A DNA stretch of 39,329 nucleotides from a bacterium (GTDB lineage: Bacteria > Joyebacterota > Joyebacteria > Joyebacterales > Joyebacteraceae), in the NCBI GenBank assembly GCA_025774245.1, contig JALGWI010000024.1, positions 1 through 39,329 on the forward strand, in the 5' to 3' direction. Below, piece by piece: positions 14,302 to 23,283 of this stretch; position 1 is the first letter of the stretch; each line of letters starts with the position of its first letter. A program made the translations under genes and the position numbers. The notes beneath the pieces were generated by a model. It was not told where the DNA came from. It ran no database searches and saw only the letters and a list, made by a program, of their open reading frames with translations.

Positions 14302-14637
14302 TCAGCTCGAAACGTCCGTTCCTTCCGGATCCGGCGCCGGACGCGCGTCCGGCCTGTCCACCCAGTTGACCCTCTCCTTGAGGAACTTGCTGGGCTTGAA
14401 AACGGGGACCATCTTCTCCGGCACAACCACCTTCTGAGAACGGTCCCTCGGGTTGTACTTCATGCTGGCCTTGCGCCGCTTCACCTTGAACGTGCCGAAC
14501 TCCCGAATCTCGATGTGGCTGTGCTCTGCCAGGGAGTCCTTGATGGCTTCCAGCAGCGCCTCGACCACCGCGGCTACATCGCGCTTGGTGAGGCCCGTCT
14601 TCCCCGCCACCCGATCGACAAGGTCCGCCTTCGTCAT
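14302..14637 (-). CDS. HU/IHF-family DNA-binding protein
   Basis: 111 residues. The N-terminal helices (MTKADLVDRVAGKTGLTKRDVAAVVEALLEAI) are followed by the HU signature (IEIREFGTFKVKRRKASMKYNPRD) with the proline-tipped arm, then a family C-terminus (PVFKPSKFLKERV). A further 20-residue Pro/Asp/Glu-rich tail goes beyond the usual 90 residues. HU compacts and bends DNA. The ATG at 14637 has GGAGG ten bases upstream. A near-consensus promoter at 14967-14995 leaves a leader of about 320 nt. Confidence 0.93.
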   Translation of the reverse strand: MTKADLVDRVAGKTGLTKRDVAAVVEALLEAIKDSLAEHSHIEIREFGTFKVKRRKASMKYNPRDRSQKVVVPEKMVPVFKPSKFLKERVNWVDRPDARPAPDPEGTDVSS

Positions 14638-14960
14638 GGCCTTGAACCTCCGTGGTCGATGTCGACGGCCTCTCCCTCGGCCGTCCAGGCGCCATGCGTC
14701 TCCCCTGCGGGGCCTCCGGCGCGCCTGAGGGTCCGAACCGGGCACACAACCTCTCGAAACGAGGTTCCCCGGATACTCCCGGCGGTTCCCGCTCCGCCAT
14801 GCGATCCCGACGCGCACGCCCACCAGCGGACGCGTCGGCGCAGCCCCGGGGCTTCACGCCCCCAGGGCGGCTCGCGCGGACGGCTTGGGGCTGCCGGCGT
14901 GGCTACGCAATCCAAGACACCGCGGACCCGGCAGCAGCCAGGGTCCGTCAGGGTAGTCCC
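14638..14960 (-). other. Long structured leader of the HU operon (no gene seen)
   Basis: Between the promoter and the HU start lie about 320 nt with no credible coding frame. Hairpins visible on the minus strand include GGACCC-T-GGC / GCC-GGGTCC (14924-14946), a GGGGC-GTGAA-GCCCC stem near 14855-14870, and an AACCTCG/CGAGAGGTT stem near 14748-14766. It could be an autoregulatory leader or a separate RNA; no known family is recognised. Confidence 0.4.
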
Positions 14961-14966
14961 CGACAC

Positions 14967-14995
14967 ATCCTAGCAACAGGGTCCGGACGTGTCAA
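14967..14995 (-). promoter_or_regulatory. Strong sigma70-type promoter of the HU operon
   Basis: Minus strand TTGACA, exactly 17 bases, TAGGAT, with TG one base upstream of the -10. It lies 16 bases downstream of the sppA stop. The predicted start is near 14960. Confidence 0.7.
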
Positions 14996-15010
14996 ATCCT
15001 TTTGTGAAGG

Positions 15011-15904
15011 TCACTTGGCGGGCCTGTAGAGGTACTGGGCGCCGTGACTGGAGGCGTCCGGCTCGAGCAGTCTCGAGACGGATCCGGCCAGGAAATCCAA
15101 CAATGTCAATCGCGTGCGCCTGACAGGCTCCTGGACCCGGGGTTTTCCCGAGATCTCCCCCATTCTGCCGGCCATCCGGATCGCGTCGTCGAGCGTCCCG
15201 ACGGCATCGACGAGTCCGGCATCGAGCGCCTGCCGCCCGGAGAGAATTCGGCCGTCGGCGAGGGCGCGGATGTCCTCCTCCGACATCACCCGCTCGAGGG
15301 CGATGATTTCGATGAACTGCTCGTAGATGTCGTCGATCGTCCCCTGAAGGAGGGCGCGCTCGGCCTCGGTCATCTGGCGGCTCCAGCTTCCGATATCTTT
15401 GAACTCGCCGCTTTTCACGACCTCGTAGTCGAGACCGATCTTGCCGAGGAGCTCCTCGATATTCGCGAACGACATGATCACGCCTATGCTGCCCGTGATC
15501 GTGCTGGGATTCGCCAGGATGGAGTCGGCCGGGCACGAGATGTAGTACCCCCCCGATGCAGCGACCGATCCCATCGAGACGACGACCGGCATGCCTGCAT
15601 CCCGTACCTCGACGATCTTCTTGTAGATCTCGTACGAAGCCGCAGCCCCTCCTCCCGGGCTGTCGACGCGCAGCACGATCGCCCGGATGCCCGGGTCGCT
15701 CGCCATCGTCTCCAGATCGTCGATGGTCTGCGTGGGGTTGGACAGGACCCCCACCACTCGGACGAGCCCCACCCGCGCTCCGTACGTCGGGAACGACAGA
15801 CTCTGCCCGAGCAACGACTCGATCGCGATGATCGTAACCAGGAAGATGACGAGGAGGGCGACGATACCAATGAGCCATCCCCAGATGCATCCCTTCCGTG
15901 TCAT
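15011..15904 (-). CDS. sppA: Signal peptide peptidase SppA
   Basis: 297 residues. One N-terminal membrane segment (about 8-29), then a single ClpP-like SppA domain. The Ser/Lys dyad fits the Bacillus form: Ser117 in VAASGGYYIS and Lys169 in SGEFKDIGSW, 52 residues apart as in B. subtilis SppA. 'VDSPGGG' forms the oxyanion region. It degrades cleaved signal peptides in the membrane, with the active site outside the cytoplasm. The ATG at 15904 lies 77 bases after the aldolase stop, so it may be read from the microcompartment operon, although no function links them. Confidence 0.93.
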   Translation of the reverse strand: MTRKGCIWGWLIGIVALLVIFLVTIIAIESLLGQSLSFPTYGARVGLVRVVGVLSNPTQTIDDLETMASDPGIRAIVLRVDSPGGGAAASYEIYKKIVEVRDAGMPVVVSMGSVAASGGYYISCPADSILANPSTITGSIGVIMSFANIEELLGKIGLDYEVVKSGEFKDIGSWSRQMTEAERALLQGTIDDIYEQFIEIIALERVMSEEDIRALADGRILSGRQALDAGLVDAVGTLDDAIRMAGRMGEISGKPRVQEPVRRTRLTLLDFLAGSVSRLLEPDASSHGAQYLYRPAK

Positions 15905-15981: not shown

Positions 15982-16839
15982 CTACCCCTTCCGCATCGCG
16001 CGTTCGACCTCAGCGATGACGGCTCGCACGATCTCTTCTTCGTCCGGCGGACGTGGCGAAGCCCCGGCGGCCCGTTCCGCGGTTGCGTCGCTCGGTGTTG
16101 CCGCGGTCGCGGGTAGGGCTGCCGTCTGTGTGGTCGCGGTGCCGGGCGCGCTGCCCGGCTCGCACGCGCCGCAGGAGACGCACTCCTCAGGCACCGCGCC
16201 GAGGCCCAGACTCTCCCTCACCGAGAGGAGTTTCCTGATCTCCTCCTGACCGAGCGGGGCGGCTCCTCCGAGGAGTTTGGTCGTGAGCGTGATGTGGGCG
16301 AAGTGCTCGACCGTCTCGAGGCGGTAGTAGGCGCGCTCGACGTCGTCGCCGAGCGTCAGGACGCCGTGGTTTCTGAGGAGGAGCGCGTTGAAGCGGTCGA
16401 TGAACTCCTCGATCGACTGCGGGACCTCGTGGGTCGACGGCGTCGCGTAGCTCGTTAGCGGGATGCAGCCGAGGGTCAGGATCACCTCGGGCAGGATGCA
16501 CTGCGCGAGCGGGACGCCGGCGGCCGCGAAACCTGTGGCTCTGGGCGGATGCGCGTGCACGACGGCGCCGACGTCGGCCCTCCTCCGATAGACGAAGAGG
16601 TGCATCGGGAGCTCGGACGTCGGCGGGAGCGGTCCGGAGAGAGGCCTCCCATCGAGGTCGACGAGGGCCAGCTCCTCCGGCTTCAGAAACCCCTTCGAGC
16701 GTCCCGTCGGCGTTACGAGGATCCTGTCGCCGGGAAGGCGCACGCTCAGGTTGCCGTCGTTCGCGGCGACGTAGCCGCGTTCCCAGATTCGTCTGCCGAT
16801 CTCGACGATCTGTCTTCTCGCCTCGAACTCGGAGGGCAT
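15982..16839 (-). CDS. Class II (fuculose/rhamnulose-phosphate type) aldolase with microcompartment targeting tail
   Basis: 285 residues; the core (1-215) is the class II aldolase/adducin domain. Zinc ligands H95 and H97 (HAHPP) and H158 (RNHG), and catalytic E76 (PTSELPMH), are present, with AANDGNLSVR and TPTGRSKGF forming the phosphate site. It would split a ketose 1-phosphate into DHAP and a short aldehyde (L-lactaldehyde from fuculose or rhamnulose phosphate; acetaldehyde if the substrate is 5-deoxyribulose phosphate). After the core come C220-x2-C223-x2-C226, an Ala/Thr/Pro linker (227-264) and an amphipathic helix EEEIVRAVIAEVERAMRKG, a probable encapsulation peptide. It lies four bases after a shell gene. 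Domain call firm, substrate inferred. Confidence 0.92.
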   Translation of the reverse strand: MPSEFEARRQIVEIGRRIWERGYVAANDGNLSVRLPGDRILVTPTGRSKGFLKPEELALVDLDGRPLSGPLPPTSELPMHLFVYRRRADVGAVVHAHPPRATGFAAAGVPLAQCILPEVILTLGCIPLTSYATPSTHEVPQSIEEFIDRFNALLLRNHGVLTLGDDVERAYYRLETVEHFAHITLTTKLLGGAAPLGQEEIRKLLSVRESLGLGAVPEECVSCGACEPGSAPGTATTQTAALPATAATPSDATAERAAGASPRPPDEEEIVRAVIAEVERAMRKG

Positions 16840-22073: not shown

Positions 22074-22721
22074 TCAGCGCAGGATCTCTACCGTGGTTCG
22101 GGGCCGCACGTCCGCCGCGTTCGCGTCGTCGGTGTCGAGATGGAGCTCGAGGGCGGAACTGCCCCCGACGCGGACGAGCACGTTCTCGAAGACCAGGGCC
22201 CGCTCGCCTGGGAATCTGACCCTGACGAGGTCGCCGTCCTTCACCCGATGGACGGCCGCGTCCCGGTCGTTCATGTGGATGTGGCGCGTGGCCCTGACGG
22301 CCCCTTGTTTGAGCGCCACCGTCCCCGCCGGGCCGACGAGCGTGATCGGCTCGCTGCCGACGAGGTCACCCGAGCGCCGCACCGGCGGGTCGATCCCGAG
22401 CCGCATCGCGTCGCTCCTCGAGATCTCCACCTGGGTGTAGGTCCTGACAGGTCCCAGGAGCCTGACGTCCTCGATCGCCCGCATCGAGCGTCCGACCACC
22501 GTCACGGTCTCGCCGGATGCGAACTCGCCGGGCTGACCGAGATCGCGGAGCTTGGTCAGCTGGTAGCCCTCACCGTAGAGGGCGTCGAGCACGCCGCGGG
22601 CAACGTGGATATGCCGGGCCGAAACGGTCACGGGGATCCCACCGCCCGTGGCGGCATCGCCGGGGTCATTCCCCTTGAGCCTCCGCATGACCTCCTGGGC
22701 GATCCTCTCGACGTCGTCCAT
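22074..22721 (-). CDS. pduL: Phosphotransacylase PduL
   Basis: 215 residues. Converts acyl-CoA plus phosphate to acyl phosphate and CoA inside the shell, recycling CoA. Two PduL-type beta-barrels carry the zinc-binding motifs SARHIHV (H37, H39) and [11 protein letters not shown], with [14 protein letters not shown] near the end. Residues 1-18 ([18 protein letters not shown]) form an amphipathic helix plus a Gly/Asp linker, the expected N-terminal encapsulation peptide. ATG at 22721 has GGAGG eight bases upstream. It is the first gene of the microcompartment operon. No acetate/propionate kinase follows in this window. Confidence 0.95.
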
Positions 22722-22815: not shown

Positions 22816-22844
22816 AGTCTAGCAGAGGGCCCATAACCTGTCAA
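22816..22844 (-). promoter_or_regulatory. Sigma70-type promoter of the microcompartment operon
   Basis: Minus strand TTGACA, 17-base spacer, TAGACT, with TG one base before the -10. The predicted start is near 22809, about 88 bases before pduL. It lies 85 bases downstream of the terminator at 22929-22964, so the operon can be transcribed independently of the sigma54 unit. Confidence 0.68.
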
Positions 22845-22928: not shown

Positions 22929-22964
22929 AAAACCGGAACGGCCCGCCTTGAAGGCGGGCCGTTC
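22929..22964 (-). terminator. Intrinsic terminator ahead of the microcompartment promoter
   Basis: Perfect 12-bp GC-rich stem (GAACGGCCCGCC / GGCGGGCCGTTC) with a 5-base loop (22936-22964). On the minus strand it is followed by CGG and then TTTT (22929-22932). The other strand has no T-run, so it works leftward. It ends the candidate RNA and also insulates the glycan operon from the microcompartment operon. Confidence 0.75.
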
Positions 22965-23096
22965 TGAGAGGAGAGCGTTCCCCGCGTCTGCCGTGCAACA
23001 GGTTCAGACGACTCATTCTCTGGATAGGGGATCAGCCCACGACCTGGCGACTGCTCACGAGCATGGCAGGGAACGCCTCTCTATTCAGCTGTCTTC
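22929..23096 (-). ncRNA. Candidate sigma54-driven structured small RNA or leader
   Basis: About 168 nt between a perfect sigma54 promoter and an intrinsic terminator, without a credible coding frame. Plus-strand coordinates of pairings: GAGAGCGTTCCC (22971-22982) with GGGAACGCCTCTC (23069-23081; 12 bp, one bulge), stacked on TGCC (22989-22992) with GGCA (23065-23068). Inside, CAGGT (22999-23003) pairs with ACCTG (23042-23046), and small hairpins lie at 23052-23063 (TGCT/AGCA) and 23005-23022 (CAGA/TCTG). Two distant arms closing over 110 nt are hard to explain by chance. Not recognised as 6S, SRP, tmRNA or any riboswitch. Confidence 0.6.
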
Positions 23097-23106
23097 CCTG
23101 ACATCA

Positions 23107-23122
23107 TGCAAAGACCGTGCCA
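23107..23122 (-). promoter_or_regulatory. Sigma54 (RpoN) -24/-12 promoter
   Basis: On the minus strand TGGCACG, four bases, TTGCA: an exact match to the sigma54 consensus, with the required ten bases between the GG and GC dinucleotides. The predicted start is 23096. About 0.005 chance matches to these 12 fixed bases are expected in a window this size on both strands (equal base use assumed). Confidence 0.8.
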
Positions 23123-23283
23123 TCGGTCGCGGGCTCCCCCCTCCCGCCTCGAGGAGCCGCGGAGGGCCTCAAGCAGGGGCTCTCTGCCTCTCCGCGTGAG
23201 GGAGCGCGCCGGAATGTTGCAGTCCCAGGTCGCCGGGAAGGCCGGCGGCCTCCTCTTCTGCAACGGGACGTGACTCAGAGACG

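Follow-up and report, generated by a model that had tools for sequence, protein, structure and literature searches.

The window, a stretch of 39,329 nucleotides, contains a microcompartment operon on the minus strand and, just upstream of it, an interval that is predicted to encode a small RNA. The genome is of the Candidatus Effluviviacota type. The DNA pattern of the RNA core matches metagenome-assembled genomes of Candidatus Eisenbacteria and Candidatus Effluviviaceae, the latter being assigned to the phylum Candidatus Effluviviacota in the NCBI taxonomy. A preliminary description of this DNA had placed a structured RNA immediately before the operon, which is correct for the window, where pduL is the first gene of the operon. 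The main features are as follows:

23107..23122, minus strand: sigma54 -24/-12 promoter TGGCACGGTCTTTGCA, identified by consensus match and by equivalents upstream of homologues
22929..23096, minus strand: predicted small RNA of ~168 nt, with the 5' end inferred from the promoter and the 3' end from the terminator
23081..23087, minus strand: leader element TGAATAG, shared by many relatives
22936..22964, minus strand: terminator hairpin with a 13-bp stem and then TTTT (22929-22932), predicted from the fold
22816..22844, minus strand: sigma70-type promoter TTGACA-N17-TAGACT, the microcompartment operon's own, between the RNA and pduL
22074..22721, minus strand: pduL (PF06130), first gene of the microcompartment operon, outside the RNA

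Promoter and predicted transcript

The sequence at 23107-23122 on the minus strand reads TGGCACG-GTCT-TTGCA, which is the sigma54 consensus. Both this re-reading and a scan of the window agree with the perfect site reported before, and no other position of the window matches the pattern with one mismatch or fewer (chance expectation 0.29). A strict sigma54 pattern lies within 130 nt upstream of the RNA at 57 of 66 loci, compared with 1 of 190 control windows. Of the nine loci that fail the strict pattern, weaker GG-N10-GC forms were recognised by eye at three (L165, L166, and L179), and another two are located at a contig end, where the upstream sequence is absent. The -24/-12 site sits 64-80 nt ahead of the core CCAGGTCGTGGGCTGATC in all 17 aligned homologues; its loss in close relatives, which the preliminary description had named as a point against its own proposal, did not occur. 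Each of the 13 family genomes examined for rpoN has the gene. The genome of the window contains rpoN together with eight clear sigma54-activator genes, as that description had suggested looking for. Both marks of a sigma54-dependent transcript, a conserved GG-N10-GC element and the rpoN and activator genes, are present here. Inspection of 260 nt upstream revealed no convincing motif common to all loci that could serve as a shared activator-binding site. A TTGCAGAA-hairpin-TGTAACATTCGG element recurs at ~23222-23270, where it precedes the sigma54 site by about 100-140 nt, and at the equivalent place in L084, L085, and L095; it may terminate the glycosyltransferase gene that lies upstream, or belong to a dispersed repeat.

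Transcription is predicted to start near 23096, about 12 nt past the -12 element, and to stop at the TTTT run. For the resulting 168-nt RNA, the fold has an energy of -78.3 kcal/mol (z = -4.4), a value equalled by none of 200 shuffles, and an Rfam scan returned no family at its threshold, so that the earlier picture of an unrecognised structured RNA of this length behind a sigma54 promoter is supported. The perfect 12-bp terminator proposed at its 3' end was recovered as a hairpin (13 bp here) with its TTTT, but it was not called by a simple terminator scan because only four T residues follow. Many relatives carry a terminator-like hairpin or a T-rich tail after P1. The RNA interval holds no coding frame of note. 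A candidate micropeptide, MLVSSRQVVG followed by a stop, was rejected, since 1-nt indels break its frame in the relatives L014, L025, and L029.

A conserved family of structured RNAs

The conserved helices and the core were located in the window as follows:

23067..23076, minus strand: P1 5' arm GCGTTCCCTG, a 6S-like closing stem, from covariation and 6S comparison
22975..22984, minus strand: P1 3' arm CGGGGAACGC, from covariation
23056..23063, minus strand: P2 5' arm TGCTCGTG, from covariation
22989..22995, minus strand: P2 3' arm CACGGCA, from covariation
23042..23049, minus strand: P3 5' arm CGCCAGGT, from covariation
22996..23003, minus strand: P3 3' arm ACCTGTTG, from covariation
23030..23047, minus strand: core CCAGGTCGTGGGCTGATC, from the alignment of the window's phylum
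23009..23014, minus strand: P4 3' arm GAGTCG, from covariation

P1 consists of 10 bp and is lengthened outward by GAGAG/CTCTC with one bulged G. Its U-G wobble is kept in 65 of 66 rows, with a near-invariant U in the 5' arm. The core is invariant across the window's phylum apart from one 1-nt insertion, and GGGCTGATC within it contains the P4 5' arm. The 12-bp closing helix described previously (22971-22982 with 23069-23081) is present, but its coordinates are close to those of P1 rather than identical. The TGCC/GGCA helix described with it can be drawn, whereas the comparative data favour P2 as CGTG/CACG, together with P3 and P4.

Two-sided changes occur in 20 of 28 pairs among 66 distinct aligned rows, and P1, P2, P3, and P4 each include some; the covariation that had been suggested as a check in homologous regions was therefore found. 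Across the 66 rows, 94% of cells pair, a share that falls to 33-48% with slid partners, and none of 500 shuffles reaches any of the five measures, in an alignment that was fitted to the covariance model and so leans toward the structure. P1-P3 were already supported by a 17-sequence MAFFT alignment built without the model.

A DNA search retrieved homologues of the RNA in 16 further genomes of the same family, and the covariance model gave a single strong hit per genome in 17 of the 20 available genomes of the window's phylum. In a 386-genome sample, the model also detected six genomes from three other groups. Group-wide searches with the refined model then gave 7 of 7, 8 of 8, and 33 of 47 genomes of these three phylum-level groups, which carry more distant homologues. 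The RNA is a conserved, previously uncatalogued family of four phylum-level groups that is absent from Rfam, and this is new in itself. The preliminary description had noticed neither this wide distribution nor the likeness to 6S RNA described below.

Relation to the microcompartment operon

Same-strand microcompartment genes lie downstream of the RNA at 46 of 66 loci, across the four phylum-level groups, and comprise PduL, BMC-H, EutN, PduP, PduS, and class II aldolase, which is a PVM-like set. At 17 of the 66 loci, the RNA is kept with no microcompartment genes in the available downstream sequence (up to 8 kb), and these RNAs retain sigma54-type sites. This persistence argues for action in trans. 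Within the window's phylum, the RNA and the microcompartment genes are missing from the same genomes; the exception is G007, where the RNA is at a contig end. An RNA obligatorily tied to microcompartments was considered and rejected, because other groups place it, with no microcompartment genes, before S49 peptidase-HU-RNase R, subtilase, or OPT transporter genes. In group f263, the RNA is followed directly by genes for an S49 peptidase, HU, and RNase R; the window has an S49 peptidase gene and an HU-like gene (14377-15904) after the microcompartment genes. This gene order suggests that the microcompartment genes may be cargo inserted in an older locus. The class II aldolase of the window (15982-16839) lies inside the microcompartment cluster and suggests a PVM-like (fucose/rhamnose-type) substrate. 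A study of Effluviviacota found the microcompartment substrate unclear (PMC11323493).

The preliminary description had also considered a leader with a conditional terminator. Such a cis-acting leader, from which sigma54 transcription would run into pduL upon terminator bypass, would suit the frequent occurrence of microcompartment genes on the same strand and a gap between RNA and operon that narrows to ~70 nt in L078. It is nevertheless an unlikely reading. The sigma70-type promoter after the RNA is kept in most relatives, group f135 included, so that the RNA and the operon look like separate transcription units. The RNA has terminator-like ends and survives at the 17 loci mentioned above. 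The exchange of GGAACG/CGTTCC partners that had been envisaged costs ~25 kcal/mol relative to the free fold when forced, the CGTTCC of the terminator is not conserved, and no favourable terminator/antiterminator alternative emerged from folding. A riboswitch or attenuator always belongs to the leader of its target gene and has an exchangeable terminator, whereas the genes downstream of this RNA differ. The interval could instead act as a local device, in which the adjacent sigma70-type promoter is tuned either by transcription that starts at the sigma54 site or by the activator bound there, and the RNA is secondary. The two promoters of the window are indeed ~200-300 bp apart, but the sequence and base pairs of the RNA are conserved across phyla far beyond the surrounding DNA, which makes this explanation very improbable.

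Resemblance to 6S RNA and proposed function

The top Rfam match of the RNA is 6S (RF00013), at 24.9 bits in the window and up to 30.1 bits in relatives, below the threshold of 46.4. In whole-genome searches within the window's phylum, the RF00013 E value is as low as 3e-4, and the RNA locus is the best, mostly the only, match per genome. RF00013 finds no match in the distant homologues of the RNA, and the family covariance model does not detect canonical 6S. At least four of the genomes with these distant homologues have a canonical 6S above threshold elsewhere, which means that the additional RNA must serve a different purpose. In the 20 genomes of the window's phylum (G000-G019), RF00013 finds no canonical 6S besides the RNA locus, and rpoN is intact; the 6S of this lineage may have disappeared or diverged strongly.

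The arms of the RNA were compared with the 6S RNAs of the same genomes after the resemblance had been seen. Their mean score was 34.0, where the null gave 22.5 (sd 1.4), and none of 2000 pair-preserving shuffles reached it. When P1 was omitted, the score was 26.2 against 19.8 (0 of 1000 shuffles), and the resemblance was weaker against 6S RNAs of unrelated phyla (24 of 1000 shuffles). A 7-bp stem, UUCCCUG/CGGGGAA, is identical in the RNA and 6S, U-G wobble included. In G344, both RNAs share UUCCCUGCnGnnCUCGUGAU and GGCACACGG..GGCGGGGAAC nearly letter for letter, and in G153 the leader GAATTGAATAG precedes the canonical 6S as it precedes the new RNA. The resemblance of the arms points to descent from 6S or mimicry of it. 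A TGAATAG-type leader is also found ahead of canonical 6S in one distant genome (L100), where GAATTGAATAG, 20-30 nt before the 6S start, resembles the new-RNA leader GACAACTGAATAG of the same genome.

The RNA shares with 6S the closing stem CCCUGC..GUUCGU / ACGGC..GCGGGG with its U-G wobble, the order and spacing of helices, and the rod shape. Its GRGCYGA-type helix occupies the region where the product RNA (pRNA) starts in 6S; its most conserved letters, GUGGGCUGAUC, sit at that position, and GGGCTGATC appears to lie there as well. The two differ in that the core of the RNA is ~105 nt rather than 160-200 nt, the long apical (-35-like) arm is replaced by a loop of ~15-25 nt, the covarying P3 spans the large open bubble of 6S and leaves a one-sided bulge of 6-9 nt, and the RNA is under a sigma54 promoter. 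Plain 6S identity was rejected on the basis of the threshold, arm, and bubble tests and the presence of canonical 6S elsewhere in several genomes. Among the titles and abstracts retrieved in a literature search on 6S with sigma54 or rpoN, none describes a sigma54-driven 6S. A further 6S-like RNA of ~124 nt was observed in three genomes of group f135 (L204:3149-3272, L205:2802-2924, and L206:2725-2847). It has a sigma70-type promoter and a GGGUUCA motif, adjoins what reads as the end of guaA, and gives a weak family-model match (E ~1e-3 per genome) and no RF00013 match.

6S RNA imitates an open promoter and is freed once polymerase has used it as the template for a short product RNA. An artificial 78-nt B. 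subtilis 6S-1 without the -35 arm retained polymerase binding and product RNA, with ~10-fold lower affinity (PMC8876501). Given this working short form and the 6S-like layout, a polymerase-binding RNA made by sigma54 is proposed. We tentatively favour, at slightly less than an even chance, a stand-alone, trans-acting, sigma54-dependent family, most likely a compact 6S paralogue that occupies polymerase. It would have kept the 6S-type closing stem, the bulged middle, and the GRGCYGA-type helix, but not the long apical arm, the part of 6S that imitates the -35 region. Once a sigma54 activator responds to its signal, the RNA would accumulate and occupy RNA polymerase, probably the primary-sigma holoenzyme, while its own synthesis by sigma54 would stay unblocked. 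Housekeeping transcription, including that from neighbouring sigma70-type promoters, would be lowered until the RNA is released by synthesis of a short product RNA, which would begin AUCAGCCC.

The main weakness of this polymerase-binding reading is that P3 pairs across the supposed open bubble. A sigma54-dependent trans-acting sRNA that works otherwise, by base-pairing with mRNA or by holding a regulatory protein, is a substantial possibility; the 6S-like stem would then be a coincidence or a protein platform. The sigma54 promoter, the discrete predicted ends, and the invariant single-stranded core would all fit such an sRNA, as would the closure of the bubble by P3, the coexistence with canonical 6S, and the distant homologues without an RF00013 match. 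However, the likeness of the arms to 6S far exceeds pair-preserving shuffles even without P1, and the helix order and spacing of 6S are matched, which speaks for the compact 6S paralogue. A broader proposal is more doubtful: a second 6S class in several phyla, transcribed by sigma54 polymerase and by nature devoid of the arm that imitates the -35 region, through which a signal-specific activator would throttle housekeeping polymerase and which may have replaced 6S in the window's phylum. If the RNA binds polymerase, it would couple a signal-specific sigma54 system to global transcription control and reveal which parts of 6S nature can dispense with.

Two 6S RNAs in one genome are already known from B. 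subtilis, namely 6S-1 and 6S-2. EutX and Rli55 are small RNAs beside ethanolamine microcompartment operons, with a B12 riboswitch and EutV sites; the RNA described here also adjoins a microcompartment operon, but matched no riboswitch family. The downstream class II aldolase, PduL, PduP, BMC-H/T, and EutN genes resemble PVM-type loci, and the word RNA is absent from the text of the paper that catalogues these loci (PMC8217296). Ms1 RNA of actinobacteria is likewise structurally related to 6S and has its own role at RNA polymerase, but it belongs to another phylum and binds core polymerase, and it is likened here by structure (PMC9130861). The truncated 6S-1 is short as well, but the short form described here is natural and sigma54-driven. 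If it binds polymerase, it would provide an evolutionary test case for what the shortened 6S-1 does in vitro (PMC8876501).
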